Source: a bacterium
GTDB taxonomy: Bacteria; NPL-UPA2; JAUVJM01
Assembly (NCBI GenBank): GCA_030606215.1
Contig: JAUWGW010000001.1
Coordinates: forward strand, 62,001-126,000
Length of the DNA: 64,000 bases
Reading direction: 5' to 3'
Shown: positions 23,164-50,473 of the stretch, piece by piece
Layout: every line of letters starts with the position of its first letter
How positions within the stretch are numbered: position 1 is the first letter of the stretch
Notes under the pieces: generated by a model
Databases searched by the model: none
What the model was told of the DNA's origin: nothing
The model's input: the letters and a program-made list of their open reading frames with translations, nothing else
Position numbers and translations under genes: made by a program

Positions 23164-25149
23164 TCAAAAATTCGCATCCGGGATTCTGTCAATGAACATC
23201 CGATGCCATAATTCAAAATTAAGAAGTGCCCAGAGTCTGGAGCCATGGTCATACCGCTTGTTGCAATGCTCATCTACAATTAATTTCAAATAATCCTCTC
23301 TGAAATATCCCCGCTGAAGACTTTCCCTGGATAAGAGGATTTCATAGATGTATTTTTTAAGTTCATTCCTCAGCCAGCGGCTGACGGGCACACCAAATCC
23401 CATCTTCCCCCGATGGAGTATTTGATATGGAAGAAGATTTGAGAATGCCTTCTTTAGAATATATTTGCTGTTGAATCCTTTAAGCTTGAGATTGGAGGGA
23501 ATGGATGCAGTAAACTCCATAAGTTTATGGTCAAGGAAAGGGGAACGCGCTTCAAGTGAATTTGCCATCGTAGCTATATCCATCTTGACAAACAAATCAT
23601 TTGGGAGATATGTCATAATGTCTACGAAAAGAGTAGTATCCAGAAAATCCTGCCCCATTCCTTTTTTATCTGCAGGGGTTTGGTCCATCAAACCCTTATC
23701 TGTAGTGGTCTGATTTATCAGACCTGTCTTAAAGTGATTTAGCAGATAATCAAATGAATCTATTCCCTCAACAGCTTCTTTAAAAAAAGGAGTGTAAAGT
23801 TCATTTTTTCTTTCATTGTCAAAGATGCATGTCCAGCGGATGTATCTTTGCTCCCTTGAATAATTCACGGATTTCATAAATCTTCTGACACGTCTACCAT
23901 AAGCTTTCTGCTCTGGAGAATATGGAATTAACTTAACTATACCGTCGATTATATCCTTACGAATCCACAGGGGTAGTTTCTCAAAATATTCGGCTAACTT
24001 AACTGCCCTATAGCGGGGATACCCTGCAAAATTCTCATCTCCACCATCTCCATTCAGTGCAACTGTTACTTCCTGAGAGGTCTTTTCTGCAACATAATAA
24101 GTAGGAATTGCAGATGAATCAGCAAATGGTTCATTGTAATGCCAGATAAGCTTTGGAAGGAGCTTAATCGCATCCGGCTTTACAACATATTCATGATGGT
24201 CAGTCTTGAAATGTTTTGCCACAATTCGGGCATATTTAAGTTCATCATATGCTCTATCTTCAAACCCTACTGAAAAAGTTTTAACCCTCCTCCCCATTAA
24301 TTTACTCATTATTCCAACAATAATGCTTGAATCAATCCCGCCACTCAAGAAAGCCCCCAGAGGAACGTCACTGACAAGTCTCAATTTAACTGCTTCCTCA
24401 AGCACCTCCCGAATACGCTTGCAGTATTCATCTTCCGTCATTTTAATCTTATTATTCATGTTAAGATTCCAGTATCGTTCAATTGAAATCTTGCCCATCT
24501 CACACACTAAATAATGGGCGGGAGGCAACTTCCGGATATTTTTAAAGGCAGTTAATGGGGATGGAACATATTGATAAGTAAGATAGTTGTGTATAGCAGG
24601 CAAGTTAACCTCTCTTGGAATTCTGGGTACTTGAAGGATTGACTTAATTTCAGATGCAAAGATTAGTTGGTTCCTGCAGTTGGTGTAACACAGTGGTTTC
24701 TGCCCGAGCCTATCTCTTGCCAGAAACAACCTATTTTTCTTTTCATCCCATATTGCAAAAGCAAACATCCCGCGGAGGAATTCCAGACAATCAATGCCAT
24801 AAGTTTCGTAAAGATGGATTATTACCTCAACATCACTATTGGTATAGAAATGATGCCCCTCATTTTCCAGTTTTTTTCTTAACTCCTTGAAATTATATAC
24901 TTCCCCGTTACATACAATCCAGATTGTCCCATCCTCATTATGAATCGGTTGATGCCCCGTCTTTAAATCTATAATAGCAAGCCGCCTTATTCCCAACCCT
25001 ACATTATTTTGCTCATTTCTTTTCCACCCCAAATATATCCCTTCATCGTCAGGACCTCTGTACTCCATCACCTTGCACATCTTTCTGATGGTTTCTTCCT
25101 GAATGCCACTTTCAGAATCTATATTCAGGATACCGCATATCCCGCACAT
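23164..25149 (-). CDS. asnB: Asparagine synthase (glutamine-hydrolysing)
   Basis: MCGICGI N-terminal Ntn nucleophile, YRGPDDEGI, GAFLSGGIDSSIIVG, SLEARSPFLDHKLMEF. Confidence 0.94.
   Translation of the reverse strand: MCGICGILNIDSESGIQEETIRKMCKVMEYRGPDDEGIYLGWKRNEQNNVGLGIRRLAIIDLKTGHQPIHNEDGTIWIVCNGEVYNFKELRKKLENEGHHFYTNSDVEVIIHLYETYGIDCLEFLRGMFAFAIWDEKKNRLFLARDRLGQKPLCYTNCRNQLIFASEIKSILQVPRIPREVNLPAIHNYLTYQYVPSPLTAFKNIRKLPPAHYLVCEMGKISIERYWNLNMNNKIKMTEDEYCKRIREVLEEAVKLRLVSDVPLGAFLSGGIDSSIIVGIMSKLMGRRVKTFSVGFEDRAYDELKYARIVAKHFKTDHHEYVVKPDAIKLLPKLIWHYNEPFADSSAIPTYYVAEKTSQEVTVALNGDGGDENFAGYPRYRAVKLAEYFEKLPLWIRKDIIDGIVKLIPYSPEQKAYGRRVRRFMKSVNYSREQRYIRWTCIFDNERKNELYTPFFKEAVEGIDSFDYLLNHFKTGLINQTTTDKGLMDQTPADKKGMGQDFLDTTLFVDIMTYLPNDLFVKMDIATMANSLEARSPFLDHKLMEFTASIPSNLKLKGFNSKYILKKAFSNLLPYQILHRGKMGFGVPVSRWLRNELKKYIYEILLSRESLQRGYFREDYLKLIVDEHCNKRYDHGSRLWALLNFELWHRMFIDRIPDANF
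23670..23731. repeat. Two tandem family A palindromes inside asnB
   Basis: tgcaGGGGTTTGGTccATCAAACCCttatctgtagtGGTCTGATttATCAGACCtg. Confidence 0.75.
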
Positions 25150-29398: not shown

Positions 29399-30364
29399 CT
29401 AACTGTTCTCTAAAGTCTCCAGTATTGCATCATGTTCTGGCTTCTCGCCTTTCAGTACTCTTATACAATTCTCTGCAGCACCCAATTCCATCAAAAATCT
29501 GGATTCACGAGCTGATGCTCCCATATGGGCTGTAAGAATCACATTATCAAGCTGTGTTAGCATTCCTTCATATGGCTCCTTCTCGAATACATCTAATGCC
29601 GCTCCGCCTAAATGCTTCTGGAGAAGTGCATCAGTCAGAGATTCTTCATCTACCACCGGACCGCGGGAGGTGTTAATCAGACAACTACCTGTTTTCATCC
29701 TGGATATGATTTTACGGTCAACATAATGATGATTTCGCTTATTGTATGGGATGTGCAGAGTTACCAGGTCTGCACATGAAAATAATTCCTCTTTAGATAC
29801 CCATCTCAACCCAAATTTTTTGCCAAATTCAAAATCGGGTTCCAGTTCACAAGCTAATATTTTCGCATTAGATGGCTGAAGTAATTGGCAGACTCTCTTG
29901 CCAATTCGTCCCACTCCAACAATTCCAATGGTTATTTCTTTCAAAAGCACTCCCATATAACGATTCCACGTTCCTTCTCGCACAGAACGGTCAGATGATA
30001 AAATATGCCTGCTCAGATTGATGATATTGCCAACAGTAAGTTCCGCCACAGCTTGCGATGGAGCATCCGGCGTGTAGGTAACAGCAATACCAAGTTTTTT
30101 GCAGGCTTCTAAATCCACACTGTCAAGCCCGATACCAACCCTACTAATGACTTTCAATTGCCTGGCATCCTGTAGTAAATCAGATGTGTAGGGTTCAGTT
30201 CCAGCAATCACTGCATCAATATCCTCAACAAGTTCACCTACCTCTCCAGCCTTCAACCTACGACCGTATGGGTTTTTTATTATTTCCCAGCCTGTTGCTT
30301 CCAACAATTCCAGCGGCTCTCTACCAGCTTTTCCAAAAGGGTAAGTAGCAATAAATATTTTCAT
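29399..30364 (-). CDS. D-isomer-specific 2-hydroxyacid dehydrogenase (SerA-like)
   Basis: ITIGIVGVGRIGKRVCQLL, MKTGSCLINTSRGPVVDEESLTDAL, AALDVFEKEP; start set at MKIFIATYPFG since the longer ORF overlaps upstream gene. Confidence 0.88.
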   Translation of the reverse strand: MKIFIATYPFGKAGREPLELLEATGWEIIKNPYGRRLKAGEVGELVEDIDAVIAGTEPYTSDLLQDARQLKVISRVGIGLDSVDLEACKKLGIAVTYTPDAPSQAVAELTVGNIINLSRHILSSDRSVREGTWNRYMGVLLKEITIGIVGVGRIGKRVCQLLQPSNAKILACELEPDFEFGKKFGLRWVSKEELFSCADLVTLHIPYNKRNHHYVDRKIISRMKTGSCLINTSRGPVVDEESLTDALLQKHLGGAALDVFEKEPYEGMLTQLDNVILTAHMGASARESRFLMELGAAENCIRVLKGEKPEHDAILETLENS

Positions 30365-30380
30365 TCCACTGATGCTCTGT

Positions 30381-31061
30381 TTAGTGTGAACTGGCATATA
30401 AAGCGAGTAATTCGGCAAGACGGAAAGAAAACTCATCATCTATATCAATGGATTCCACTCTTGGTGTTTCAAACATCATTGGCTTATCTCCTATGCGGTG
30501 CTCATGCAAAGCGAATGATTGTTTCGTGAATATATAAAGAACGGAATTTTCCTCATATACCGGTTGTAAATCCTGGGTAGGGATTAAATTCTCAGGGTCG
30601 TGGTTAATTGGTTTAACATCAGAAAGATAAAATCGGCTTTGGTGCCGGTTAACAGAGAAGAGAGAATCATATCCGGTTTCATCTTCCACAAATACCTTTA
30701 ATGCTCTTGCAATGGTTTCAGCCTTTAAAAGCGGATTTGTAGCATGGGTTTGTAGGTAGATGTCACCATCTGAGATTGACAAATCATACCCAAAAATCTT
30801 GTTTACATTGACATAATCACCTCTTAATTCTTTCGGTCTCTCCACAACTTTCACCTTAGAAAATAATTTTGGGGCCTCATTGATAACCAGAGGGCTATCT
30901 GTGTTAATAATGACCTCATCAACTGCATAGGTGTGTTCAAGCGTTCCCAAAATGTGATGATAAAGAGGCTTCCCGCAAAAATTGCGAAAATTCTTATCTT
31001 TTACTCGTTCACTATGCTCCTTGATTGGGACCAGCGCCACAACCTTCTGACTATGCATCAT
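30381..31061 (-). CDS. Acylneuraminate cytidylyltransferase family protein
   Basis: VALVPIKEHSERVKDKNFRNFCGKPLYHHIL, RPKELRGDYVNVNKIF, ESIDIDDEFSFRLAE. Confidence 0.85.
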   Translation of the reverse strand: MMHSQKVVALVPIKEHSERVKDKNFRNFCGKPLYHHILGTLEHTYAVDEVIINTDSPLVINEAPKLFSKVKVVERPKELRGDYVNVNKIFGYDLSISDGDIYLQTHATNPLLKAETIARALKVFVEDETGYDSLFSVNRHQSRFYLSDVKPINHDPENLIPTQDLQPVYEENSVLYIFTKQSFALHEHRIGDKPMMFETPRVESIDIDDEFSFRLAELLALYASSH

Positions 31062-31086
31062 TTGCTATCCCTCCTGTAATATATCT

Positions 31087-31926
31087 CTACTTCCTCCTCC
31101 TTGACGGGGGAGGATTAAGGTGGAGGTGTAGGTTGTTCAACTTTTGCCGAATTTCTTCCAACCCCTGACGGCAAGCATTACCTACCATAGTAATATCTAA
31201 ACTGTAAGCCATTATAGAAAACCCTTCCTCAATTCTTTTCATTGCCTCTTGTGGGTCGGGCTCAATGACATGAATGCCTGCTCTGGCATTATTCCGTAAA
31301 CACTCATCAAGAATGTTTCTTCTTACCTTCAAGTAATCAGGATGTTCAAATTGACCTGTGATGCCCATTGACGCAGTCAGATCATATGGTCCAATAAACA
31401 CGGCATCAACTCCCTCAACTGAAAGGATTTCGCCAAGATTCTTAACCGCCTTTATATGCTCAATTTGGACACAGACGAAGGTTTCCTTGTTTGCTTTAGC
31501 CATATATTCATTAAAGGAGAATCCATAGCCATGGCTGCGACCGTAGCCTACCCCTCGTTCGCCCATTGGAGGATACTTCACAGAACGTACAAGCTCTTTT
31601 GCATCATGCGCACAATTAATGAGTGGTGCGATTACCCCCATCGCTCCTGCATCCAGATATCGTTTTGTTTCAGCATATGAATTTTCAGGCAAGCGTACCA
31701 TCGGTACACAATTTGGATTACCTGCTTTAATCGCTTGAAATATAACCTGTGCTTGTGGAACATCTACTGCTGAATGCTCCGCGTCAACAACAAGAAAGTC
31801 AAAACCACATGCCGCCATTATCTCTGCAACAACAGCACTTCCTGTATTGATCCAACTGCCCAAAAGACAACTCCTCTCATTTAACATAATCTCCGTACCC
31901 TCCTTTGAGTTTCCCTGCCTCATCAA
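31087..31926 (-). CDS. HpcH/HpaI aldolase/citrate lyase family protein
   Basis: LGSWINTGSAVVAEIMAACGFDFLVVDAEHSAVD, MVRLPENSYAETKRYLDAGAMGVIAPLI, VQIEHIKAVKNLGEILSVEGVDAVFIGPYDLTASMG. Confidence 0.9.
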   Translation of the reverse strand: MMRQGNSKEGTEIMLNERSCLLGSWINTGSAVVAEIMAACGFDFLVVDAEHSAVDVPQAQVIFQAIKAGNPNCVPMVRLPENSYAETKRYLDAGAMGVIAPLINCAHDAKELVRSVKYPPMGERGVGYGRSHGYGFSFNEYMAKANKETFVCVQIEHIKAVKNLGEILSVEGVDAVFIGPYDLTASMGITGQFEHPDYLKVRRNILDECLRNNARAGIHVIEPDPQEAMKRIEEGFSIMAYSLDITMVGNACRQGLEEIRQKLNNLHLHLNPPPSRRRK

Positions 31927-33581
31927 CGGTATCTAAACGGCTCCCCATGCAAAATAGCACGCAGGATGACATCTATTTCCTGTGAGTTTTCTGGCATTAG
32001 GTCCTGGACACTATTGATGGTTATTTTTGGAACTTGACTACCAGTGCCCAGGAAAGCTGAGAGGTCAAGGCAAGTTTTAAAAAGTATATAATAGTAATAG
32101 CGGCGTGCCAGACTTCGTCGTTCTTCATTACCTGGCATTTCCTCCGCAGTCAGGAAATCCATCACCTGCCGATGATATGCTTCTGGTGTGGGGGGGAAGA
32201 GCACTGCTCTACAATCCTGGTAGGGCACTGCCCCTCCAGCAATCATCGGCTTGCCCAGTACCAACGACTCCAAACCAATGGTGGAACTATAAACCAACAC
32301 AAATTTAGAACGGTGAATCAGTTCATACGAACTCAAGTGTTCATTTGGTCCAATAAACTCCACATTTTTTAGTGTTAGCCATCCCTGCTCTTTCAACCAA
32401 TCTCCTACTGGCTCACGGCTCGGTTTGCCAGGACGCGCCTCGTCAGGATGCGCACGCACAACGAACAGGGTATCCGGGCTTTCCCGCACAATGCTCATCG
32501 TCATATTTAACCAATCAAACATATTATCAAAGCTGACATTCGCATACTTCTGAATAGCGTCGTAGCTAACGTTGGTAAAGATGGGCACCAACTGGCGATA
32601 ACAGCTAATCTTCTTCAACAAATTCTCATCCAGTTCCTTCATTTTTGGCCAGAAACGAAGACCTCCAACTGTGAAGTTGCCTTTAAACCTTCTGGTTAGA
32701 TAGTCATCAAGTTCTTTGTTCATGGGCTCGCTCAGTTCAAAATCTTTTGGCACTTCTACCTCAAATCTTACTGCCCGATTATGTGCTAAAAAAGTTGTCC
32801 CTTCGCGAAGACCTGCCTCATACGTAATGACAGGGACACCTTGCTCCCGTGCAATTGTCAAGACGACTGCCTCCGGATATGTCAAACCACTAAAAACGAC
32901 AACCGCAAGCGGGGTTTCATTAGCGACAAGTTGGCGGAAACAGCGTGCCAGGTGGGCAGCACCGACAATATATCGCGCCAGCAGCTGAGGTGCCCTCTTA
33001 TCTTTTGCCGGATCTCCTGAGTTTAAAGCCCACATCAAAGATGGATAGCCTAACCTACCCAGGGGCAAACCCTCAAATATAACATCTCTTAACTTCATTA
33101 GTGATTGGTCTTGCAAAGTATCCAGCCACGCAGTCAAATCGGAGTCGTAGCTATCGGGCCACCTGCCCCAATCGTGGCGCAGTTGGGCAGGAAATGTGAA
33201 CTGACTCAACTTGACACAATTGCGGCAAGGCTCCGGTGTGCATGGCTCGTCCCGCCAATCGGCGCCTCTCTGACACTGTAACAAACTCCGCTGACAGGAA
33301 TAATATATTACCCGATGACCTTTCAATCGCAAAGCCCAGCCTATCAGCAAATCAGTCGCCGAGTTAAAACTAACACTTCCCCAAAATGACCGGGACGAAA
33401 TATTCATCAGGACGATAGGTGGCCCTGCCAGCGGGTGTTTACGCTCCCAGGCCTGGACAGCATGTTCGACATCACGGAAGGAGCGCATCCTCTGTCTCTG
33501 CCGGAACAAGAGACCGGCGCCGCCATATATCAGAGAAATCACTGATTTTCCAAGAGAATTGTCCTCTTTTCTATTCATCAT
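31923..33581 (-). CDS. Capsule/surface polysaccharide biosynthesis protein (GT-B-like)
   Basis: SSTIGLESLVLGKPMIAGGAVPYQ and VVRAHPDEARPGKPSRE motifs resembling capsule polysaccharide glycosyltransferases. Confidence 0.6.
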   Translation of the reverse strand: MMNRKEDNSLGKSVISLIYGGAGLLFRQRQRMRSFRDVEHAVQAWERKHPLAGPPIVLMNISSRSFWGSVSFNSATDLLIGWALRLKGHRVIYYSCQRSLLQCQRGADWRDEPCTPEPCRNCVKLSQFTFPAQLRHDWGRWPDSYDSDLTAWLDTLQDQSLMKLRDVIFEGLPLGRLGYPSLMWALNSGDPAKDKRAPQLLARYIVGAAHLARCFRQLVANETPLAVVVFSGLTYPEAVVLTIAREQGVPVITYEAGLREGTTFLAHNRAVRFEVEVPKDFELSEPMNKELDDYLTRRFKGNFTVGGLRFWPKMKELDENLLKKISCYRQLVPIFTNVSYDAIQKYANVSFDNMFDWLNMTMSIVRESPDTLFVVRAHPDEARPGKPSREPVGDWLKEQGWLTLKNVEFIGPNEHLSSYELIHRSKFVLVYSSTIGLESLVLGKPMIAGGAVPYQDCRAVLFPPTPEAYHRQVMDFLTAEEMPGNEERRSLARRYYYYILFKTCLDLSAFLGTGSQVPKITINSVQDLMPENSQEIDVILRAILHGEPFRYR

Positions 33582-33591
33582 TAACCCTTCA

Positions 33592-34542
33592 TCACAAGGG
33601 AGTCTGCGTAAAAGGATTAAACCAAGCCTCTTTAATCTTGCTCTTAAGTACTTTTTCTATTCCGTCTTTTAGGCTGACCGTACACTTGTACCCTAAAAAT
33701 CTCTTCGCTTTGGAAATATCCGGAGTCCTTGTTACTATCTCTCGACATGCCTCCCTATCAGCATTTTGTAGGGGGACAAACTCGGGCTTAATTCTCTTGC
33801 CGCCAATTCCAATAACAGTCGTAGCTAAATCTTTCATAGTGATAGGCTTTTTGTCATCACCTATGTTGAATACTTCACCGTCAGCTTTCGTCGCAAACAA
33901 AGCTAAAGCTATCCCTTCTACCGCATCATCAACATAACAGAACGCTCTCACTTGCTCTCCAGTCCCATAAATACATGGTGATAACCCTTGCTGTATAGCT
34001 TTTACAAATCTGGGAATCACAAACTCAGCAATTTGTCCAGTACCGTAAATATTGAATAGTCTTACAATAGTATGATCCAGAGCATAGGCTTGACGATATG
34101 CCCGAACATACTCTTCACCGGCCAACTTTGTTACCCCATATACTGATTTGGGATTGACAGGATTTGTCTCAGAAATTGGTTGCTTGGCTTGGTCGCCATA
34201 AACCTCTGAAGATGATATAAACAGAATTTTCTTTACTCTCTCCTTTACACAATTCTCAAGCACATTGACCGTCCCCAATATATTAATATTCAAGCAGTCC
34301 AGTCTTCTAATTTCTGTTCTCCTGACACCCACCATAGCAGCCAAATGCACAACATACTCACACCCCCGGATAGCTAATCGCAGTGCATCCGTATCCAGTA
34401 TGCTACCCATGTAGTTTTCTGCACCTTTAGCTCTTGATTCCACTATATCAAAAGCTCTTACATCATACCCTAATTTGACCAAATGTCTCACCAATGCTGA
34501 ACCAATAAACCCAGAGCCTCCAGTAACCAAAACCTTAGACAT
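33592..34542 (-). CDS. NAD-dependent epimerase/dehydratase (extended SDR)
   Basis: KVLVTGGSGFIGSALVRHLVKLGYDV, SSSEVYGD, YGVTKLAGEEYVRAY. Confidence 0.9.
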   Translation of the reverse strand: MSKVLVTGGSGFIGSALVRHLVKLGYDVRAFDIVESRAKGAENYMGSILDTDALRLAIRGCEYVVHLAAMVGVRRTEIRRLDCLNINILGTVNVLENCVKERVKKILFISSSEVYGDQAKQPISETNPVNPKSVYGVTKLAGEEYVRAYRQAYALDHTIVRLFNIYGTGQIAEFVIPRFVKAIQQGLSPCIYGTGEQVRAFCYVDDAVEGIALALFATKADGEVFNIGDDKKPITMKDLATTVIGIGGKRIKPEFVPLQNADREACREIVTRTPDISKAKRFLGYKCTVSLKDGIEKVLKSKIKEAWFNPFTQTPL

Positions 34543-35690
34543 TATAGACTTCTCCTATATTGAGAACATAGAGTTTCCACTACTTCCACAACAATAGATA
34601 CTTCTTCCTCACTCATTGCGGGATAAATTGGCAGGGATAATGCAGTCCTGGCGAACTCAAGAGTATTTGGATAGTCATCGGAGATAGCCAAATCCGTGAA
34701 CACTTTTTGTGTGTGTAGAGCCGGATAGTATAGTCTTGAACTTACCCCTTTTTCAGACAGGGCTTCAATGAACTGATTTCTGGTTATAGTCACCTCATCA
34801 AGATTTAACCTGATTGTATAAAGCTGATAATTGATGTCATTCTCAGTTCTTTGAAATGGAGTGATGATGGCCTCTAAATCTTCAAACGCCATGGTATATC
34901 TATGAGCAATACTTCTTCTCCGACGAACTGCTTCTTCCAATTTTCTTAGCTGGACCAAACCTACGCCACCCATTACCTCAGGCATTCTAAAATTAAAACC
35001 TAAATTCTCATACTCGAATTTACCTATGTCACTGAAATCCCTTATTAATCTACATTTTTTTGCTAAATCAGACTTATTTGTGGTAATCATGCCACCTTCC
35101 CCGGTAGTTATAGGTTTTGAAGGAGTGAAACTAAAAATAGCAATGTCTCCTATCCCCCCCGCCTTTTTGCCTTTGTACTCAGACAAATGTGCTTCTGCCG
35201 CATCCTCTAAGACGAACAGGCCGTATCTTTTTGCTATTTCTAATATATATTCCATATCAGCACTTTGCCCGGCATAATGCACAGGAATAATACCTTTGGT
35301 TCCCTTAGTAATTCTTCGCTTTATATCACCTGGATTTATACAATAGGTTTTCATCTCAATGTCTGCAAAGACTGGCTTAGCTCCCAGATACATGCAGGAT
35401 GAGGCAGTGGAGATAAACGTCATATCTGGCACAATAACCTCATCGCCAGCCTGGACTCCCAGAGCTTGCTGTGCAATTAGCAAAGCACTGCTTCCACTGT
35501 TAACAGCAACTGCGTGCCTAACAGCAATTTTTTCTGCAAATCTTTTTTCAAATTCAGCAACTTTAGGGCCGGATATGAGCCACCCAGACTTTACAATACT
35601 CTGGGCAATCTGTGCCTCTTCTGCACCGATCCATGGTTTTGACAAAGGGATCTTTACATTTCCCCTAATACTGCTTCCTGCAATACTCAC
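34542..35690 (-). CDS. DegT/DnrJ/EryC1-family PLP-dependent sugar aminotransferase
   Basis: IPLSKPWIGAEEAQIAQSIVKSGWL, NSGSSALLIAQQALGVQAGDEVIVPDMTF, FSFTPSKPITTGEGGMI; GTG start with upstream GGAGG proposed, track ORF extends to 35786. Confidence 0.9.
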   Translation of the reverse strand: MSIAGSSIRGNVKIPLSKPWIGAEEAQIAQSIVKSGWLISGPKVAEFEKRFAEKIAVRHAVAVNSGSSALLIAQQALGVQAGDEVIVPDMTFISTASSCMYLGAKPVFADIEMKTYCINPGDIKRRITKGTKGIIPVHYAGQSADMEYILEIAKRYGLFVLEDAAEAHLSEYKGKKAGGIGDIAIFSFTPSKPITTGEGGMITTNKSDLAKKCRLIRDFSDIGKFEYENLGFNFRMPEVMGGVGLVQLRKLEEAVRRRRSIAHRYTMAFEDLEAIITPFQRTENDINYQLYTIRLNLDEVTITRNQFIEALSEKGVSSRLYYPALHTQKVFTDLAISDDYPNTLEFARTALSLPIYPAMSEEEVSIVVEVVETLCSQYRRSL

Positions 35691-35706
35691 CTTAGATATC
35701 CTCCTT

Positions 35707-36360
35707 CTATTTTTCTGCAGGTTTAGCTGGTATTCCCACATATACTTTGTTATTCTCAGTATCTTTGGTGATGACAGCTCCTGCACCTACAAAGACGTTT
35801 TCACCGACTATTCTATTTTCTAATACAGTAGCACCTGCTCCTACTTGACTGAAATCACCTACTGTCGCAAATCCTAACACTGTCGCGCTGGGACTAATAT
35901 GACAATACTTGCCTATATTGGAGTTATGTTCAACAACCGCATTGCTGTTAATGATTGTATAGTCACCAATCACAGCATGAGGGTTGACCACACAGTTTAC
36001 ACACAATTGTGCTGTTTCGCTTATCCTGGCGTTGTCAGAGACATAACATTGTGGGTGCTTTGCTCCAATTAGGGTTAGGCCTTTTTCCGCACTCCTTTCT
36101 ACCAACATCCTTCTCACTCTCCCATCAGCGACAGCAACAATCCCTTTCTCAACACCCTTTTTGATTAAACCATCTACTTTCTCAAAATTGCCCAAAACTT
36201 TTACTCCATCTATCGCGGTGTCATACAATTCTTTACTGTCATCTATAAATCCTGCTACTTCAATATCGTTAAGTCTTAGTATCTCTAAAATTATTCTTCC
36301 GTGTCCTCCTGCACCAATAATTATGCACTTCATTATATATCCCCTATGCTCATTCATCAT
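35707..36360 (-). CDS. neuD: NeuD-type sugar O/N-acetyltransferase (left-handed beta helix)
   Basis: KCIIIGAGGHGRIILEILRLNDIEVAGFIDDSKELY; hexapeptide repeats. Confidence 0.87.
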   Translation of the reverse strand: MMNEHRGYIMKCIIIGAGGHGRIILEILRLNDIEVAGFIDDSKELYDTAIDGVKVLGNFEKVDGLIKKGVEKGIVAVADGRVRRMLVERSAEKGLTLIGAKHPQCYVSDNARISETAQLCVNCVVNPHAVIGDYTIINSNAVVEHNSNIGKYCHISPSATVLGFATVGDFSQVGAGATVLENRIVGENVFVGAGAVITKDTENNKVYVGIPAKPAEK

Positions 36361-36366
36361 ACTCTG

Positions 36367-37521
36367 TCAATAAGTTATTTGTTTCTGCAGTAACTTTCTA
36401 TCTATCCTTACCCCAGCCAAAATATCGGCAATTCTATGACCTGTCTTGCCATCACCATAAGGATTCTTGCAATGCTGAACTCTCTCACGAAATTTCTTAT
36501 CATATAAAGCTTCTTCTATTGCACGCACTATTTCGTGCTTATCATATCCAACATCAATAATATTTTCTCCTCTCTCTCTATTTTTCTGCCTTGTGCCAAC
36601 ATTTACTACAGGTAATCTGAAGGATGCCGACTCTATGATACCGCTACTGGAATTGCCAATCATGACACTTGCAATGCCCATTAGGCTTAGGTAATCTTCA
36701 TAAGGCAAACTCTTATATGTCTGCAGAAATGGCAAGTTTTCATATTTTCTAATTCTTTGAACCATTACTCTTCCACCAGCATCAGCGTTCGGATATATCC
36801 ATACACATTGCAGTTGCAATTTCTTGATTGCCTCAAGAGTTTGCTCAATCTGAAATTCGCAGTCAGATATTTCCATAGAGACAGGATGCTGAACTGCCAA
36901 CAATATGGGCTCTTTAAAATCCAAATGATATTTTTTTCCCAATTCGTCTTTTTTGATTAGCGGTGCATTTAAGATTGTGTCCAAAGATGGCGCACCAACA
37001 ACATGTACTCTCCAAGCCTCTTCGCCCATCTTCAGGATTCTCTTTGCACTATTTTGAGTCGCTGGAAAGTGTATATGCGCTAATTTGGTAATCGCATGCC
37101 TGGCAATTTCATCCACTGTGCTGGATACCTCGCCTCCATGGATATGGGCGACTGGAATGCCACAGTAGACACCAGTAACAGCACCAGACAACATCTCTCC
37201 TCTATCACCAAGAACTATAATTATATCCGGCTGTATCTTTTTAACAATCTGGAGAATACCCACTATGCAGTTCCCTACAAATTCCGCCATAGCAGGTTTA
37301 TTATCTTCCTGATAAACAAAATTAGCAATTTCGTATTCAAAACCATCCTTTTTAATCTCTTTAATGGTTTCTCCAAATTCAGACATCAAATGCATTCCTG
37401 TAACTATCAGAGTCAATTCAAGTTTTGGATGGTTTCTTACAGCATTTAGTACCGATTTCATCAGGCCGTAATCTGCCCTGGTTCCTGTAACATAAACAAT
37501 TTTCCTCGCAGTAGGTCTCAT
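36367..37521 (-). CDS. neuC: UDP-N-acetylglucosamine 2-epimerase (hydrolysing), NeuC/LegG-like
   Basis: KIVYVTGTRADYGLMKSVLNAV, LGDRGEMLSGAVTGVYCGIPVAHIHGGE, IGNSSSGIIESASFRLPVVNVGTRQKNRERG. Confidence 0.92.
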   Translation of the reverse strand: MRPTARKIVYVTGTRADYGLMKSVLNAVRNHPKLELTLIVTGMHLMSEFGETIKEIKKDGFEYEIANFVYQEDNKPAMAEFVGNCIVGILQIVKKIQPDIIIVLGDRGEMLSGAVTGVYCGIPVAHIHGGEVSSTVDEIARHAITKLAHIHFPATQNSAKRILKMGEEAWRVHVVGAPSLDTILNAPLIKKDELGKKYHLDFKEPILLAVQHPVSMEISDCEFQIEQTLEAIKKLQLQCVWIYPNADAGGRVMVQRIRKYENLPFLQTYKSLPYEDYLSLMGIASVMIGNSSSGIIESASFRLPVVNVGTRQKNRERGENIIDVGYDKHEIVRAIEEALYDKKFRERVQHCKNPYGDGKTGHRIADILAGVRIDRKLLQKQITY

Positions 37522-37535
37522 CTTACGAACATATT

Positions 37536-38663
37536 TTAAGAGAAAGATTCTTCAGTTAACAACTCATCAGCTCTTATATTTCTTGCAGCCTTTTTACCAA
37601 TGATGTTTTTGAACTGTTTTGGAGGTAGACCAGTCCCTGGCCTTTTGATAGTTATCATATCCTCCTGGATTACTACTCCTTTCTTAATATCCTTTGCCGC
37701 CACCACGCTTTTCCTTACAGCCTCTGCAATCCTTAATTCACTTTCCGTGGGCTTGACATTTCTTGAGCCTAAAATTAACTCAACACTATCCAGCGGAAAA
37801 GCGGTTTTGAGCTTCCTGTTAATCTCTCTTAGAACCTCAAAAGGATCCCTTATTTGAGCTTGTTCAACAAACCTTGCCATCTCGATCATTTGCTTGAGTT
37901 CATTTGGTTCCAGAGAAGCTTTATGGTCTAACCCATCCATATTCTTATCTAAGGTGAAGTGTTTTTCAATAATCGCAGCCCCTAAGGAAACGGCGACAGC
38001 CGCAGGCTCTATCCAAGAGGTATGGTCAGAAAATCCTACAGGCAGACCAAATTCATTCTCCAGAGTTTCCATCACTCGCAGATTCACATCCCCCAGTCTA
38101 CACGGGTAGTCTGTCGTGCAATGTAAAATGATAATCTTGTTGGTGTTTTCCCTCACTGTATCAATTGCTTCTTTCACCTCTTCAAAGGTTGCCATTCCTG
38201 TACTTATTATCAAGGGCTTGCCTTTCTCGGAAACATACTCCAGTAACGGAACATTGGTCACATCGGGACTGGGAATCTTGAAAGCTACTACCCCTAAACT
38301 ATCCAGAACATCAACACTCCATTTATTTGAATGGGATGAAGATAAGAAAATGATATTTTTCTGGTCACAGTACTCCTTTAAAACCTTATGTTCTTTTTCC
38401 GTAAGCTCAACCTTTTTGAGAACATTGAATTGTGAATCGCACTTCCCGATATTTTGGCGTTGATACTCAACGATGGGTAAGTCTTTCGTTACTATGTCTT
38501 CTGTTCTAAATGTTTGAAACTTAACCGCATCTGCACAAGCAGATACAGCTGCATCTATCATCCTCTTTGCTATTTCCATATTCCCGTTGTGGTTGACACC
38601 AGCCTCAGCAATTATGAATACTGGATATCCCTTCCCAATTTTCTTGTCAGCTATCTTAATCAT
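37536..38663 (-). CDS. neuB: N-acetylneuraminate synthase family protein (NeuB/LegI-like) with SAF domain
   Basis: FIIAEAGVNHNGNMEIAKRMIDAAVSACADAVKFQTF, LHCTTDYPCRLGDVNLR, GFSDHT; C-terminal SAF-like region. Confidence 0.93.
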   Translation of the reverse strand: MIKIADKKIGKGYPVFIIAEAGVNHNGNMEIAKRMIDAAVSACADAVKFQTFRTEDIVTKDLPIVEYQRQNIGKCDSQFNVLKKVELTEKEHKVLKEYCDQKNIIFLSSSHSNKWSVDVLDSLGVVAFKIPSPDVTNVPLLEYVSEKGKPLIISTGMATFEEVKEAIDTVRENTNKIIILHCTTDYPCRLGDVNLRVMETLENEFGLPVGFSDHTSWIEPAAVAVSLGAAIIEKHFTLDKNMDGLDHKASLEPNELKQMIEMARFVEQAQIRDPFEVLREINRKLKTAFPLDSVELILGSRNVKPTESELRIAEAVRKSVVAAKDIKKGVVIQEDMITIKRPGTGLPPKQFKNIIGKKAARNIRADELLTEESFS

Positions 38664-39394
38664 GACCTATTGCGCGAGTGCTTCCTTTCTTTCATGATTG
38701 CCTCCGCAATCTTAAAGTCAAATTCATCATCTATATCTAATGATCTTTCTTTGGACATGGTATATGCCCTGGTGTCCTTGCCGATAACAAAGTCTTTCAA
38801 TTGCATGAGTACGCTAACTTTTGTAGCATAAATTGCTGCGTTTACTCTATACAGTTTCGGGGATTCTAAGTAACTACATGGTTTCCTGCTTGCCACTCTG
38901 GATATGAATTCCTCCTCAATGCAGAACTTGATTCTCTTCTCATTATCTATCTTTAACATCCACAAGGATAAATAGTCCAATTCACATACACTGGCAACAG
39001 AATCTGCTCCTGTGTCTCTTAAGATTTTTAGAGCCTTATCAATATCTTCGACTGTTCGGAACGGGGAGGTTGGTTGTAAGAGAATAGCATAGTCAAATCC
39101 TTCTATATTTCTCAATACATGTTGCATAACTGGCAAAGTAGGAGTTATGTCTTGCACTAATTCTACCGGCCTTATCACGACTTCAGCCCCATATTGTCGA
39201 GAGACTTCGGCAATTTCGTCATCTTCAGTAGAAACCACCGTCTTTGTTATACGGTTTGATAGCAATGCCTGTTGAATGGTATAGGCAATCAGTGGTTTAC
39301 CAGCCAATATTCTTAGGTTCTTCCTCTTAACCCGTTTAGAGTTTCCCCTTGCCGGAATTATGGCTATTATTTGAGCAGCGTTTTCAGTTTCCAT
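38660..39394 (-). CDS. neuA: CMP-N-acetylneuraminic acid synthetase-like cytidylyltransferase
   Basis: IIAIIPARGNSKRVKRKNLRILAGKPLIAYTIQQAL, LLQPTSPFRTVEDIDKAL, ERSLDIDDEFDFKIAEAIM. Confidence 0.9.
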   Translation of the reverse strand: METENAAQIIAIIPARGNSKRVKRKNLRILAGKPLIAYTIQQALLSNRITKTVVSTEDDEIAEVSRQYGAEVVIRPVELVQDITPTLPVMQHVLRNIEGFDYAILLQPTSPFRTVEDIDKALKILRDTGADSVASVCELDYLSLWMLKIDNEKRIKFCIEEEFISRVASRKPCSYLESPKLYRVNAAIYATKVSVLMQLKDFVIGKDTRAYTMSKERSLDIDDEFDFKIAEAIMKERKHSRNRS

Positions 39395-40473
39395 TTGCCT
39401 TCCACTTTCTCCCAAATTTCCTTGTTGCGAAATCTTTCAGCAATGTCCCAGAATTCTTCTTCAGTATAGCCAGTGAATTCCAGAAAGTCTTTTAAGGCTT
39501 TTGGGTCTAATTTATGGTCATGTTCCTTGACCAGCTTGATTGCTTCATCCCTGCTAATCCTACCTGTGCGTATCCAGTAACAACATACGTCCGTAACTCT
39601 AGCATGACCATACTTGTAATATTTCAACCAGGGGTGTACCAGGTAACCAATAGCATCTATCTGGTCATAATCTTCTACGTATCCTTCCCTTTTCCATTCA
39701 TCTCCTAAAGATTTAAACCCATACTTTCTGGCAACTTCATAATTACGATAACCATCCCAAGGGAAAAAATAGCTCAAATAGATGGGTTCTATACCAGCTT
39801 TTTCTATCTCTTCCTTCCCAGGATAAATAAAAGTGTTAAGGTCCTTCATTGTTATTTCCTCATCCAACCAAAAGTCCCAATCTATAGGCTTTACCACATC
39901 ATTATCAATTTGGTCTTTAGCGCTATAGGTCTCTTCTTTCTGAAAACCACCATATTCATAACTCACATTTTCACCATATACTACCAAGGGAATCTTCATA
40001 TTTATGGCCATTCTAATGGGGAAAACATATACTGCTCTATCCCAGCACCACATAGGACTTCCGAGCTTTTCAAAAGCCTTTCGCATCATCTTTCTGGCTA
40101 ATTTCCTATTTAGGTGAAGAGAGATAGTATCGCAACCAAATGCATCACTAAGATTATTAAAATTGTGAAGCCCGGCCTTAGTCCAGCTGAAATTCGATAC
40201 ATTGACCAGAAGAGGATTCATCTCCATCCGCTCTTTTATTACATACGCCTGGAAATGGCTATCCTTCCCTCCACTCACAGTAACAATACAATCATAATAG
40301 TTACCATTTTTACCTCTAAACTTATCGCAGAGATTCTGAAGTTCGCTGTATCGCGAATCCCAGTCAATCCCCTTCTTCTTCTCAGCTACTTTACAAGCCT
40401 GGCAGATACCTTCGCTATCCAGGACCAGACCCGGCCTGGTATCTGGCATCACACATTTTTTACAATATCTCAT
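39367..40473 (-). CDS. N-acetyl sugar amidotransferase (WbpG/PseA-like)
   Basis: MRYCKKCVMPDTRPGLVLDSEGICQAC, PP-loop TVSGGKDSHFQAYVIKERMEMNPLLVNV. Confidence 0.92.
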   Translation of the reverse strand: MRYCKKCVMPDTRPGLVLDSEGICQACKVAEKKKGIDWDSRYSELQNLCDKFRGKNGNYYDCIVTVSGGKDSHFQAYVIKERMEMNPLLVNVSNFSWTKAGLHNFNNLSDAFGCDTISLHLNRKLARKMMRKAFEKLGSPMWCWDRAVYVFPIRMAINMKIPLVVYGENVSYEYGGFQKEETYSAKDQIDNDVVKPIDWDFWLDEEITMKDLNTFIYPGKEEIEKAGIEPIYLSYFFPWDGYRNYEVARKYGFKSLGDEWKREGYVEDYDQIDAIGYLVHPWLKYYKYGHARVTDVCCYWIRTGRISRDEAIKLVKEHDHKLDPKALKDFLEFTGYTEEEFWDIAERFRNKEIWEKVEGKWKLKTLLK

Positions 40474-40482
40474 TGTTTGCGA

Positions 40483-42123
40483 CTACTCACATTCCGCTCT
40501 GTCCAACCAACCATCGGGGCTGCTTATCGTTCCCATATCGGGTGACTCTCCAGCCTTTAGAAAAACAGATTTTAACAGCACCCAGTAAGACATACGGTCA
40601 ACCGATGAGTTGTCTGCATTAAGCCGGTACTCCAATCGCACTAATGACTCCGGACACGGATATCGGTCATTGGTAGTAACTGTGCATATCCATCCCTCTG
40701 GACGCAGCCAAAGATCTACTGACTCCTCATCATAAATGAACACTGGCGATACAATTGTATTGCGAGCAAAATTTACCGGGACGTTCAAATCCTCCGGCGA
40801 CATTCTTCTATTCATCACCAGAACTTCTCTTGTGCTCGGGACCATCTTCAGGATGAACAGCGGTGGATCCACTAAGCCAGCAGGTATTATGCGAGCCAGT
40901 TTCGTGGCCAATTCACGCTGCACCAGCGAATCATAAATGTACCATTTGGTAACTCGTAAAGAGGAGAGAGCAAGAATCATCAGCACTACAAAAAATACGC
41001 TGATTCTGATTCGATGATGCCGGATAGCCATAATAAACGTCGCGCCGATTATTGAAATACCAGGAATCGAAGCATACGCAAAGCGACTGAAAAAGTGGCA
41101 AGCCGAGGGCACTCTGCCAATTAGTGCGTAGGGTAATGCGCCCAGTATCGCAAGTAGTACTCCGAATGCAAGCTGCCAAGTAATCAGACTCCTCTGCTTC
41201 AAGTGCGACGTCTTTCTTCGCCTACCCGCTGGCTCCCAAAACCACACAATTAAAAGTCCCAAAACTCCCAAAATAATGATTCCATGCCAGGAAGCCAATT
41301 TAAGCGCGGAACTCAGTGTGTAGCTGACACCATGCAGGTAGTAGCGACCATGCCTGGCCAAATCCTTTAGTAACGGCAACATCGAGAATCTTAGCTGATT
41401 GTAACTTGCATAGTACCCGTAGGGTTTTAACCAGGTAAACTTGGCAATGATAAAAGCAACAGCTATAATCCAAAATGGCATGCAACGCCGGGTCACCTTG
41501 CGAATCCCCTTGCCACTCTGATGCACAAATAGAACTCGTAACGGTTCCAGGAACATAAGGGTTTCAAACGATAAAGAAGTAATAAAAGCTCCCACTGCCA
41601 GGATACTTCCTCTCTTTCGGCCAGAAGACATGACCCAGATGGACAACAAATAACAAAACATGAAAATGTCATAACTGGTATGTACTAAACACCCACGCGC
41701 ATAGTAGAACGGAGAAAGCAAATATATTGCCGCGGCCCAGACAGAAATATCCTGTGTCAAGCGCGGCCGCCGCAAGATCCGGTAGAGAAGAACACCATTG
41801 GCAAGATGACAGACCACGGCAAAGACCCTTGCCAGTATCCCAGCGTGTTGGCCTCCCACTCCATAGAACAGGGCAAGAGGCAGCCAGTAGCCCGGATGCC
41901 GCATCTGCAATGTGTACTCAAATAGTTTATTTAAACCCTCAACCCTTGATACCCAAAACCAGGCCCAATCATCCCAATACATGCCCGAAATAAGGAGAAA
42001 TGGAACATAGATTAGACCACAGGTGATAAATAGCACAGAAACAGCCCGCGGTGTCAGAATGTTTAAACCTCGGTTATGTGTTGATAAAAGGTGTAATCTC
42101 TGTCTGTTAATTTTACCGGTCAT
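40483..42123 (-). CDS. Multi-TM glycosyltransferase-like protein, tandem copy 1
   Basis: Multi-TM; YWDDWAWFWVSRVEGLNKLFEYTLQMRHPGYW; paralog of 42113-43819. Confidence 0.7.
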   Translation of the reverse strand: MTGKINRQRLHLLSTHNRGLNILTPRAVSVLFITCGLIYVPFLLISGMYWDDWAWFWVSRVEGLNKLFEYTLQMRHPGYWLPLALFYGVGGQHAGILARVFAVVCHLANGVLLYRILRRPRLTQDISVWAAAIYLLSPFYYARGCLVHTSYDIFMFCYLLSIWVMSSGRKRGSILAVGAFITSLSFETLMFLEPLRVLFVHQSGKGIRKVTRRCMPFWIIAVAFIIAKFTWLKPYGYYASYNQLRFSMLPLLKDLARHGRYYLHGVSYTLSSALKLASWHGIIILGVLGLLIVWFWEPAGRRRKTSHLKQRSLITWQLAFGVLLAILGALPYALIGRVPSACHFFSRFAYASIPGISIIGATFIMAIRHHRIRISVFFVVLMILALSSLRVTKWYIYDSLVQRELATKLARIIPAGLVDPPLFILKMVPSTREVLVMNRRMSPEDLNVPVNFARNTIVSPVFIYDEESVDLWLRPEGWICTVTTNDRYPCPESLVRLEYRLNADNSSVDRMSYWVLLKSVFLKAGESPDMGTISSPDGWLDRAECE

Positions 42124-43819
42124 TTTTGTCCAACCAGCCATCGGGGCTGCTTATCATTCCCATATCGGGTGACTCTCCAGCCTTTAGAAAAACAGATTTT
42201 AACAGCACCCAGTAAGACATACGGTCAACCGATGAGTTGTCTGCATTAAGCCGGTACTCCAATCGCACCAATGACTCCGGACACGGATATCGGTCGTGCC
42301 ATGTAACTGTGCATAAGTAGCCTTCTGGACGTCGCAAACCGTCAACGGACTCTTCGTCATAAATGAACACTGGCGATGCAGTTGTATTGCGAGCCAGATT
42401 TACCGGGGCGTTCAGATCCTCCGGGTCCATTCTTCTGTTTAACACCAAAACTTCTCTTGTGCTTGGAACCATCTTCAAGATGAACAGCGGCGGATGCACA
42501 AGATTAGCAGGTATTATGCGAACCAGCTTCATGACCAATTCACGCTGTACCAGCGAGTCATAAATATACCATTTTGTAATTCGTAAGGAGGAAAGAGCAA
42601 GAATCATCATTACTATGAAAAATACACTGATTCTAATTCGATAATGCCGAATGGCCATAATAAGTGCCGCGCCAATTATCGAAATACCCGGGATCGAAAT
42701 ATATGCAAAACGACTATAAAAAGCATAAGACGATGGAACTCTACCAATTAGCGCGTAGGGTAACGCACCCAGTATCGCGAGCAGTGTTCCGAATAGAAGC
42801 TGCCAACCGACCAAGTTGTGCCCTTCCCGGCATTGTGCTTCTTTTCGCCTGCTCCTTCGACTGAAAAGCCACGCGATTAAAAGTCCCAAAACTCCCAAAG
42901 TAATAATTCCAGGCCACGAAGCCAATTTAAGTGCGGAACTCAATGTGTAGCCGACACCACGCAGGTAATAGCGACCATGCCTCGCCAGATTCTGTAACAA
43001 CGGTAGCATCGAAAATCTCAACTGATTATAACTTGCGAAGTCACCATAGGGTTTTAACCAGACAACCCTAGCGACAGTGAACGCAGCAAACATAATCCAA
43101 AACGGCACGCAACGTCGGATAGTGTTGCGGACCCCTTTCCAACCCCGATGCACAAATAGGACTCGTAATGGTTCTAAGAACATAAGGGTCTCAAAGAATA
43201 ATGAAATAATAAAAGCTCCCACTGCAAGCAGATTCCCTCTCCTTCGACCAGAACGCAGGAGCCAGATCGAGAATAGATAAAAGAACATGAAGATGTCATA
43301 AATGGCATGGCTTATAGTTCCACGCGCATAGTAAAATGGAGAAAGCAAATATATTGCCGCAGCCCAGACAGAAATATCACGTGTCAAGAGCGGCCGCCGC
43401 AAGATCCGGTAGAGAAGAATACCATTGACGAGATGACAGACTACGGCAAAGACTCTCGCCAGTATCCCAGCGTGCTCACCCCCAACCCCGTAGAACAGCG
43501 CAAGAGGGAACCAGTAGCCCGGATGCCGCATCTGCAACGTGTAATCAAATAGTCTATCCAGACCCTCGACCCTTGACACCCAGAACCAGGCCCAATCGTC
43601 CCAATAGATGCCCGGAATCAACAGAAACGGGATATAGACTAAACCGCAGGCGATAAATAGTAGAAAGATAGCCCGCGGTGTCATAATAGCTGAATGTCGA
43701 TTATCCAATGCCAGAAATCGTTCGTGTCGAAATAATATCAGATGTGAGAATTTCATCCGGCGAACTCCGTTTCCCATTTGAAGTCCGGTCTGATCACACC
43801 ACTTCTTCCATCTGCCCAA
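42113..43819 (-). CDS. Multi-TM glycosyltransferase-like protein, tandem copy 2
   Basis: Multi-TM; high similarity to adjacent copy. Confidence 0.7.
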   Translation of the reverse strand: MGRWKKWCDQTGLQMGNGVRRMKFSHLILFRHERFLALDNRHSAIMTPRAIFLLFIACGLVYIPFLLIPGIYWDDWAWFWVSRVEGLDRLFDYTLQMRHPGYWFPLALFYGVGGEHAGILARVFAVVCHLVNGILLYRILRRPLLTRDISVWAAAIYLLSPFYYARGTISHAIYDIFMFFYLFSIWLLRSGRRRGNLLAVGAFIISLFFETLMFLEPLRVLFVHRGWKGVRNTIRRCVPFWIMFAAFTVARVVWLKPYGDFASYNQLRFSMLPLLQNLARHGRYYLRGVGYTLSSALKLASWPGIITLGVLGLLIAWLFSRRSRRKEAQCREGHNLVGWQLLFGTLLAILGALPYALIGRVPSSYAFYSRFAYISIPGISIIGAALIMAIRHYRIRISVFFIVMMILALSSLRITKWYIYDSLVQRELVMKLVRIIPANLVHPPLFILKMVPSTREVLVLNRRMDPEDLNAPVNLARNTTASPVFIYDEESVDGLRRPEGYLCTVTWHDRYPCPESLVRLEYRLNADNSSVDRMSYWVLLKSVFLKAGESPDMGMISSPDGWLDKNDR

Positions 43820-49690: not shown

Positions 49691-50473
49691 TTAATCATCC
49701 CTATTCCGTCTGATTGCTGTCAAGGAATCTTCTGTGAATCGCACCCTAATTTTTGTATCTTTCTCAATATGAATGTTGTTTACTAACCGAAAATAGCCCT
49801 TTGTGACCTGTAGCAAAGAAGGAAATGAAACCGCTTTGGAAATCCCCTCTTTTCTTAAACCAATCCTGTAAGGAACCTCAGCGAAAAGATAGCCTTCTTT
49901 TATTGTTCTTATTAGAATATCAGTTTGAAAAAAGAAACCGTTACTTCTATAGTTCAGCTCTTTCAAAATGGATTTTCGGTAGAGGACCGTACCGTTGGTG
50001 TAGTTAAGGTTAACGAAAAACGTGCTATTAATAATGAAACGATAAAAAAATGAGAGAGCATTCCTGAAGAGAGACCTCGCTCCTTTGTTAAAGATAAAAG
50101 GGATAACAATATCCACGTGATCGAGCAACCTGTAATACCGGAGAATTTCCCGTGGATTATTCTCATTATCTCCAGGGATCATAACAATTATGTTCCCGTT
50201 AGCATTATCAACCCCGTCCCAAAATGACGCACCCACACCTTGAGGAACTTGATGAGATATCATTCTAACACGATTATCTTTTTTTATTAGAGTATCCACC
50301 ACACCTTTTGTATTATCTGCACTTCCATCGTCAACAACGATTATTTCACCCTTGATGTTGAAATCCTCAAGAGCTTTTAATGTGTTATCAATAACAACCG
50401 GAATATTTTTCCCCTCGTTAAGAGCTGGCATGATAACAGTGATATTGAGTCTGTCTTTATTCTCAAGGTTCAT
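49691..50473 (-). CDS. Glycosyltransferase family 2 (dolichol-P-mannose synthase-like)
   Basis: ITVIMPALNEGKNIPVVIDNTLKAL, EIIVVDDGSADNTKGVVD. Confidence 0.9.
   Translation of the reverse strand: MNLENKDRLNITVIMPALNEGKNIPVVIDNTLKALEDFNIKGEIIVVDDGSADNTKGVVDTLIKKDNRVRMISHQVPQGVGASFWDGVDNANGNIIVMIPGDNENNPREILRYYRLLDHVDIVIPFIFNKGARSLFRNALSFFYRFIINSTFFVNLNYTNGTVLYRKSILKELNYRSNGFFFQTDILIRTIKEGYLFAEVPYRIGLRKEGISKAVSFPSLLQVTKGYFRLVNNIHIEKDTKIRVRFTEDSLTAIRRNRDD

Follow-up and report, generated by a model that had tools for sequence, protein, structure and literature searches.

Gene content and organization of the locus

The 64,000-nucleotide stretch analyzed here (positions 62,001 to 126,000 of contig JAUWGW010000001.1, assembly GCA_030606215.1, from an uncultured bacterium of the NPL-UPA2 lineage), hereafter the window, carries seven open reading frames (ORFs) of nonulosonic acid synthesis between positions 33592 and 40473, all on the minus strand. 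Followed in the direction of transcription, from 40473 down to 33592, they encode an N-acetyl sugar amidotransferase (NASAT), NeuA, NeuB with a SAF domain, NeuC, NeuD, a DegT-family aminotransferase and an extended short-chain dehydrogenase/reductase (SDR). Neighboring genes overlap or are separated by no more than about 16 bp, and the seven constitute one operon. A sequence-only reading of this DNA had described a complete gene set for a cytidine monophosphate (CMP)-activated nonulosonic acid at this span and strand, and that description holds, with all seven ORFs recovered and NeuB, NeuC, NeuD and the NASAT passing curated cut-offs. Its identification of a WbpG/PseA-type amidotransferase and the lack of HisH/HisF in the window were likewise borne out; the cassette does not end in the amidotransferase, as that reading had it, but begins with it. 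The coordinates are collected in Table 1.

Table 1. Genes of the nonulosonic acid cassette and the gene that follows it
Feature	Position	Strand	Supporting match or motif
NASAT (WbuX/WbpG/PtmG family), first cassette gene, 368 aa	39367..40473	-	TIGR03573, PP-loop, tetracysteine
NeuA-like CMP-nonulosonate cytidylyltransferase, 251 aa	38660..39415	-	PF02348
NeuB-like nonulosonate synthase with C-terminal SAF domain, 375 aa	37536..38663	-	TIGR03569, SAF
NeuC-like hydrolyzing UDP/NDP-HexNAc 2-epimerase, 384 aa	36367..37521	-	TIGR03568
NeuD/PglD/LegH-like hexapeptide N-acetyltransferase, 217 aa	35707..36360	-	TIGR03570, PglD_N, Hexapep
DegT/DnrJ/EryC1 sugar aminotransferase, about 382 aa from GTG	34542..35690	-	PF01041
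Extended SDR with NDP-sugar 4,6-dehydratase-type active site, 316 aa	33592..34542	-	PF01370
Capsule-synthesis/BFO_1060-type glycosyltransferase-like protein, 552 aa	31923..33581	-	Weak: NF046086 1.8e-8, PF05159 3.5e-4

The SDR and the aminotransferase fall outside LegB and LegC

Matches of all seven proteins to their families far exceed chance. The SDR matches PF01370 with 206 bits and the aminotransferase PF01041 with 395 bits, but both fail the curated models of legionaminic acid (Leg) synthesis: the SDR scores 160 bits as LegB (TIGR04180, cut-off 475) and the DegT protein 262 bits as LegC (TIGR04181, cut-off 420). The SDR reaches 60 bits as PseB, and the DegT protein stays below the cut-off both as PseC (TIGR03588, 315 bits, cut-off 423.5) and as ArnB (272 bits). 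As positive controls, the corresponding proteins of Leg clusters in unrelated phyla pass, with 503 and 538 bits for LegB and 448–533 bits for LegC. The window protein lies outside the LegC clade of the DegT tree (support 100/99). Its sister is the DegT protein of a distant genome (G350, locus L071; 58% identity, support 100/100), which has similar model scores (PseC 315, ArnB 269 and LegC 252 bits). That genome carries NeuB, NeuC, DegT and SDR genes in the same order as the window, with NeuC 48% and the SDR 54% identical. Considering this recurrence and the matching DegT scores, the SDR and DegT protein seem to accompany NeuB/NeuC as a conserved pair that is separate from LegB/LegC. The SDR subfamily is not confined to nonulosonate clusters; a third member (48% identity) lies at locus L074, where nonulosonate genes are absent from the 13 kb fetched around it. 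The trees were built without Legionella's own dehydratase and aminotransferase, and a clade of the uridine diphosphate (UDP) route may be missing from them.

Alignment of the SDR with LegB proteins showed S110, S112, E113, Y135 and K139 (window numbering) to be invariant, the LegB pattern being T-S-E/Y/K, and the LegB insertion YNSFNSWGWLD to be lacking. A Ser/Thr-Ser-Glu plus Tyr-xxx-Lys pattern is common to the SDR, LegB and UDP-glucuronate decarboxylase, whereas the 4-epimerase 4zrm differs; the top PDB match of the SDR is 8vr2. We infer a dehydratase-like chemistry from these residues, and a decarboxylase-like reaction may be an alternative. A plain UDP-Glc/GlcNAc 4-epimerase, which the sequence-only reading had named as one part of what would speak against its pathway, is disfavored because the Glu of the S-S-E motif is present as in LegB and UDP-glucuronate decarboxylase and is absent from GalE 4zrm.

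The listed DegT ORF, which reaches 35786, is too long. The likely start is the GTG at position 35690, 16 bp past the NeuD stop: it is preceded by AAGGAGGATAT, which holds the Shine–Dalgarno motif AGGAGG, and the long ORF aligns with solved structures only from about its residue 46 onward.

The amidotransferase and its ammonia source

The NASAT scores 371 bits against TIGR03573 (cut-off 203) and retains the PP-loop SGGKDS and a zinc tetracysteine (CxxC...CxxC), both features of the solved Legionella pneumophila enzyme (LpNASAT, 8WEX; PMC10607449). We compared 41 TIGR03573 proteins together with their gene neighborhoods. The window enzyme groups with the NASATs (‘AmT1’) that adjoin NeuD–NeuB at loci L023 and L024 (genomes G051 and G139), with 40–41% identity and support of 94/98, then 97/97 in a second tree. 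LpNASAT belongs to a separate 99/98 clade of HisH-linked enzymes, together with those of bona fide Leg clusters, and the window NASAT lies outside it.

HisH/HisF genes commonly, though not always, accompany a NASAT gene as its ammonia partners. A search of the organism's own genome for HisH/HisF paralogs, as the sequence-only reading had suggested, recovered one HisH (contig C30) and two HisF in the 93%-complete assembly. One HisF (C30:13427-14128, L003) stands beside HisH and the other (C13:66552-67241, L002) is alone, without HisH nearby; the two are 69% identical, and HisA lies in a his operon of the same genome. Both HisF are of the histidine-pathway type: they pass the histidine HisF cut-off, miss the WbuZ cut-off and group with E. 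coli HisF. A dedicated, non-histidine-type HisH/HisF pair was not seen in this assembly. The lone HisF on C13 is not favored as a dedicated NASAT partner, given its identity to the other copy, its grouping with E. coli HisF and a WbuZ score of 296 against a cut-off of 300.

The window also encodes an asparagine-synthase-like (AsnB-like) protein at 23164-25149 on the minus strand, which comes closest to the XrtA/PEP-CTERM amidotransferase, with 633 bits against a cut-off of 817, and has its class II glutaminase and PP-loop motifs intact. It is not favored as the ammonia partner either, being of the XrtA/exopolysaccharide type, 14 kb off and apart from most NASAT-linked AsnB proteins.

NeuA, NeuB, NeuC and NeuD

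NeuB scores 415 bits as NeuB/NnaB (TIGR03569, cut-off 400) and 276 bits as PseI, with 57 bits for its SAF domain. The protein retains the equivalents of Neisseria NeuB K53, Q55, K129, S132, S154, Y186, S213, H215, E234, H236 and D247; the position of Neisseria E134 is Asp, and the usual STPF and SGE read SSSHS and SPD. The NeuB tree is weakly resolved. The sequences nearest to the window protein are Leg-linked, and the NeuB of E. coli K1 (E. coli UTI89 served as the source of the K1 NeuB and NeuC sequences) nests within the Leg-linked clade, so that NeuB phylogeny is unable to separate N-acetylneuraminate (Neu) from Leg enzymes and was rejected as a substrate test. A single scan of genome contigs with NeuB alone gave three loci.

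NeuC passes TIGR03568 with 454 bits (cut-off 236) and retains the GDR, HGGE and DE..RH motifs. Its best PDB match is LegG (5xvs/5zlr, 245 bits), with human GNE at 215 bits. The loop past HGGE is one residue longer in every LegB/LegC-linked NeuC sampled, in the NeuC of E. coli K1 and in LegG 5zlr than in human GNE and in the NeuC proteins of the window and of G350. In the NeuC tree the window protein belongs to neither the Leg nor the GNE clade, a placement that is weakly determined. Its closest relatives (52–53% identity), at loci L072 (G291) and L073 (G154), sit in NeuC–NeuD pairs, with NeuB and NeuA not seen in the parts fetched, L072 being on a short contig.

NeuD passes TIGR03570 with 199 bits (cut-off 161) and has PglD_N and Hexapep domains. 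NeuA matches PF02348 (CTP_transf_3) with 94 bits; its best NCBIfam match is PseF, at 137 bits under the cut-off of 206, and its best PDB match is the CMP-Neu5Ac synthetase 1eyr.

Proposed pathway and alternatives

With modest confidence, we favor the reading that the operon produces a sialic-acid-like surface sugar, a nine-carbon nonulosonic acid that is CMP-activated and doubly N-acylated and has one N-acetyl group converted to acetamidino, by means of an SDR/DegT pair and a NASAT that are not of the legionaminic type. The SDR would form a nucleoside diphosphate (NDP)-activated 4-keto-6-deoxy-N-acetylhexosamine, the DegT enzyme would aminate it at C4 and NeuD would acetylate the C4 amine. NeuC would then hydrolyze off the nucleotide with epimerization at C2, releasing a 2,4-diacylamino-hexose, which NeuB would condense with phosphoenolpyruvate before NeuA adds CMP. 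The NASAT would ligate ammonia in an ATP-dependent manner to one N-acetyl group, yielding a positively charged acetamidino group. The ammonia would come from a non-dedicated source, either the single HisH of the genome together with one of the two HisF, or free ammonium. The general scheme is already known; the new part is that the early enzymes and the NASAT lie outside the legionaminic families. Because the SDR/DegT lineage is not LegB/LegC and the NASAT is outside the PtmG clade, the operon probably yields not Leg5Am7Ac itself but a Leg-like isomer or derivative. Tentatively, the cassette may represent a separate branch of nonulosonate synthesis, in which a non-LegB/LegC pair feeds NeuC/NeuB to an undescribed amidino-nonulosonic acid and the NASAT works without dedicated HisH/HisF, using those of the histidine pathway or free ammonium.

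Several points weigh against this proposal. The LegB and LegC scores may be low through sequence divergence itself, in a phylum with few sampled members, yet Leg clusters of other distant phyla pass. By approximately unbiased (AU) tests, NeuC could belong to the Leg clade (p 0.137) or group with GNE (p 0.43), neither placement being rejected. The 7% of the genome that is missing could hide a dedicated HisH/HisF pair. The 20 kb fetched around the G350 block hold no NeuD, NeuA or NASAT, so that the SDR/DegT pair could act in a route that does not lead to an N-acetylated amidino sugar. The NASAT substrate could be another sugar of the cluster. The product and the enzyme activities are read from sequence.

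Ordinary legionaminic acid synthesis is the first alternative, with CMP-Leg5Am7Ac made by the UDP route as in Legionella and with divergent equivalents of LegB, LegC and PtmG. The gene set equals that of the L. pneumophila serogroup 1 O-antigen locus, in which ORF21-25 and ORF28 encode DegT, NeuD, NeuC, NeuB, NeuA and a PtmG homologue and CMP-Leg5Am7Ac is formed via UDP-diacetylbacillosamine (PMC3766260). As in that locus and in the Campylobacter PtmG route, the aminotransferase, NeuD, NeuC, NeuB, NeuA and NASAT occur together, the NASAT of those systems converting CMP-Leg5Ac7Ac to CMP-Leg5Am7Ac. The match of NeuC to LegG and the Leg-linked nearest neighbors of NeuB fit this alternative, as does the window's lack of a PtmE-like CBS nucleotidyltransferase, which the UDP route predicts. 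However, the SDR and DegT protein fail LegB and LegC where Leg clusters of unrelated phyla pass, the DegT protein is outside the LegC clade, the NASAT is in a different clade from LpNASAT and the Leg enzymes, and the NeuC loop differs. Legionella also keeps its dehydratase (lpg0966) elsewhere in the genome, whereas the window operon holds its own SDR. We regard ordinary legionaminic acid as an unlikely product. The term ‘legionaminic-type’ used in the sequence-only reading holds for the logic of the gene content but is not supported as the identity of the product, and the NeuB/NeuC/DegT phylogeny it proposed for assigning the substrate was informative for DegT, placed outside LegC, and not for NeuB or NeuC.

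The operon could alternatively house two parallel pathways. In this case NeuC, NeuB and NeuA, perhaps with NeuD, would convert UDP-GlcNAc to N-acetylneuraminate or a near analogue, while the SDR and DegT protein would make a separate 4-amino sugar, and the NASAT would modify that or another amino sugar. The shorter NeuC loop is shared with human GNE, a UDP-GlcNAc enzyme with which grouping is not rejected by the AU test, NeuB is uninformative on this point, and NASATs of other types act on such sugars, WbuX-type on FucNAc and WbpG-type on ManNAc3NAcA (PMC10607449). On the other hand, the SDR and DegT genes belong to a block with NeuC that keeps the same order in two distant genomes, suggesting a single pathway, and the nearest relatives of the window NASAT likewise adjoin NeuD–NeuB, which makes the division improbable. 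A pseudaminic acid derivative, to which the best NCBIfam matches of DegT (PseC) and NeuA (PseF) would point, is very improbable, since both matches are under their cut-offs, NeuB scores far better as NeuB/NnaB than as PseI, the hydrolyzing 2-epimerase NeuC is missing from the pseudaminic route and the SDR hardly resembles PseB.

Related loci

Canonical LegB-LegC-LegH-LegG-LegI-LegF cassettes (L061, L062, L079, L083 and L090) share the reaction logic and the NeuA, NeuB, NeuC and NeuD homologues with the window operon, but have LegB and LegC of the curated type and a PtmE-like CBS-nucleotidyltransferase; where they hold a NASAT (L061 and L062), HisH/HisF adjoin it, unlike in the window. The L023 and L024 loci, which hold the closest relatives of the window NASAT, differ from the window operon in having a second NASAT, accompanied by HisH/HisF, and genes for a PIG-L-like deacetylase, a Gfo/Idh protein and a CBS-nucleotidyltransferase. 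With two NASATs of different clades, one HisH/HisF pair and the deacetylase, these loci possibly make a doubly modified sugar.

Genes flanking the cassette

Beyond 33592 the genes continue with overlaps or gaps of about 60 bp or less to at least 27483, so the operon probably extends at least that far. The glycosyltransferase-like gene of Table 1 begins 10 bp past the SDR gene, and its product is a possible transferase for the cassette product. It is the first member of a group directly downstream (29399-33581, minus strand) that continues with an HpcH/HpaI aldolase, a second, divergent CMP-sugar cytidylyltransferase and a D-3-phosphoglycerate-dehydrogenase-like protein, and that possibly serves an aldolase-made, CMP-activated ulosonic acid. 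Homologues of the dehydrogenase recur in the nonulosonate loci L062 and L083, and one of the aldolase in L089. Directly upstream of the cassette (40483-43819, minus strand) lies a tandem duplicate, two adjacent genes whose membrane-protein products (552 and 568 aa) resemble each other; a Pfam search with the first gave no matches. Pyruvate-dehydrogenase-E1-like alpha and beta genes are found within the polysaccharide region of the window (50470-52493, minus strand), and likewise adjoin the Leg cluster in L079.

NASATs linked to asparagine-synthase-like proteins

In the NASAT comparison, at eight loci (L025, L026, L039, L040, L041, L043, L045 and L051) in as many genomes of different families, the NASAT lies beside or close to a class II glutamine amidotransferase of the asparagine-synthase-like kind, and HisH/HisF were not seen nearby at any of these loci. 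Conversely, none of the HisH-linked NASATs has an AsnB-like gene within 4.5 kb. Several of the AsnB-linked enzymes sit with NeuB, DegT and SDR genes, and a conserved protein of about 115 residues, without Pfam matches in the two copies tested, occurs at seven of the eight loci. Six of the eight NASATs form one 100/100 clade and the L025/L026 pair is separate; a single clade uniting the AsnB-linked enzymes that were labelled in the NASAT tree is rejected. Placing the window NASAT inside the AsnB-linked clade was not favored by the AU test (p 0.054), an exclusion that is not firm.

The linkage suggests a second mode of ammonia delivery to NASATs. The linked AsnB proteins retain both Cys2 and the synthetase PP-loop, and could for this reason also work as amidotransferases in their own right. 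For Tannerella forsythia, an AsnB homologue was proposed to account for the acetamidino group of its pseudaminic acid (PMC6120980). In the literature library searched, no paper was found to connect AsnB with N-acetyl sugar amidotransferases.

Implications

Amidino-nonulosonic acids change both the charge of the surface and its antigenicity; annotation of their genes commonly relies on family names alone. A complete set of NeuA, NeuB, NeuC, NeuD, DegT, SDR and NASAT can fail the Leg-specific tests of dehydratase, aminotransferase and NASAT, and ‘legionaminic’ should therefore not be transferred by gene content. The NASAT clades differ in their linked partners, which are HisH/HisF, asparagine-synthase-like proteins or none. 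If the second delivery mode is true, the NASAT family would have several modes of obtaining ammonia, one of them with asparagine-synthase-like glutaminases.

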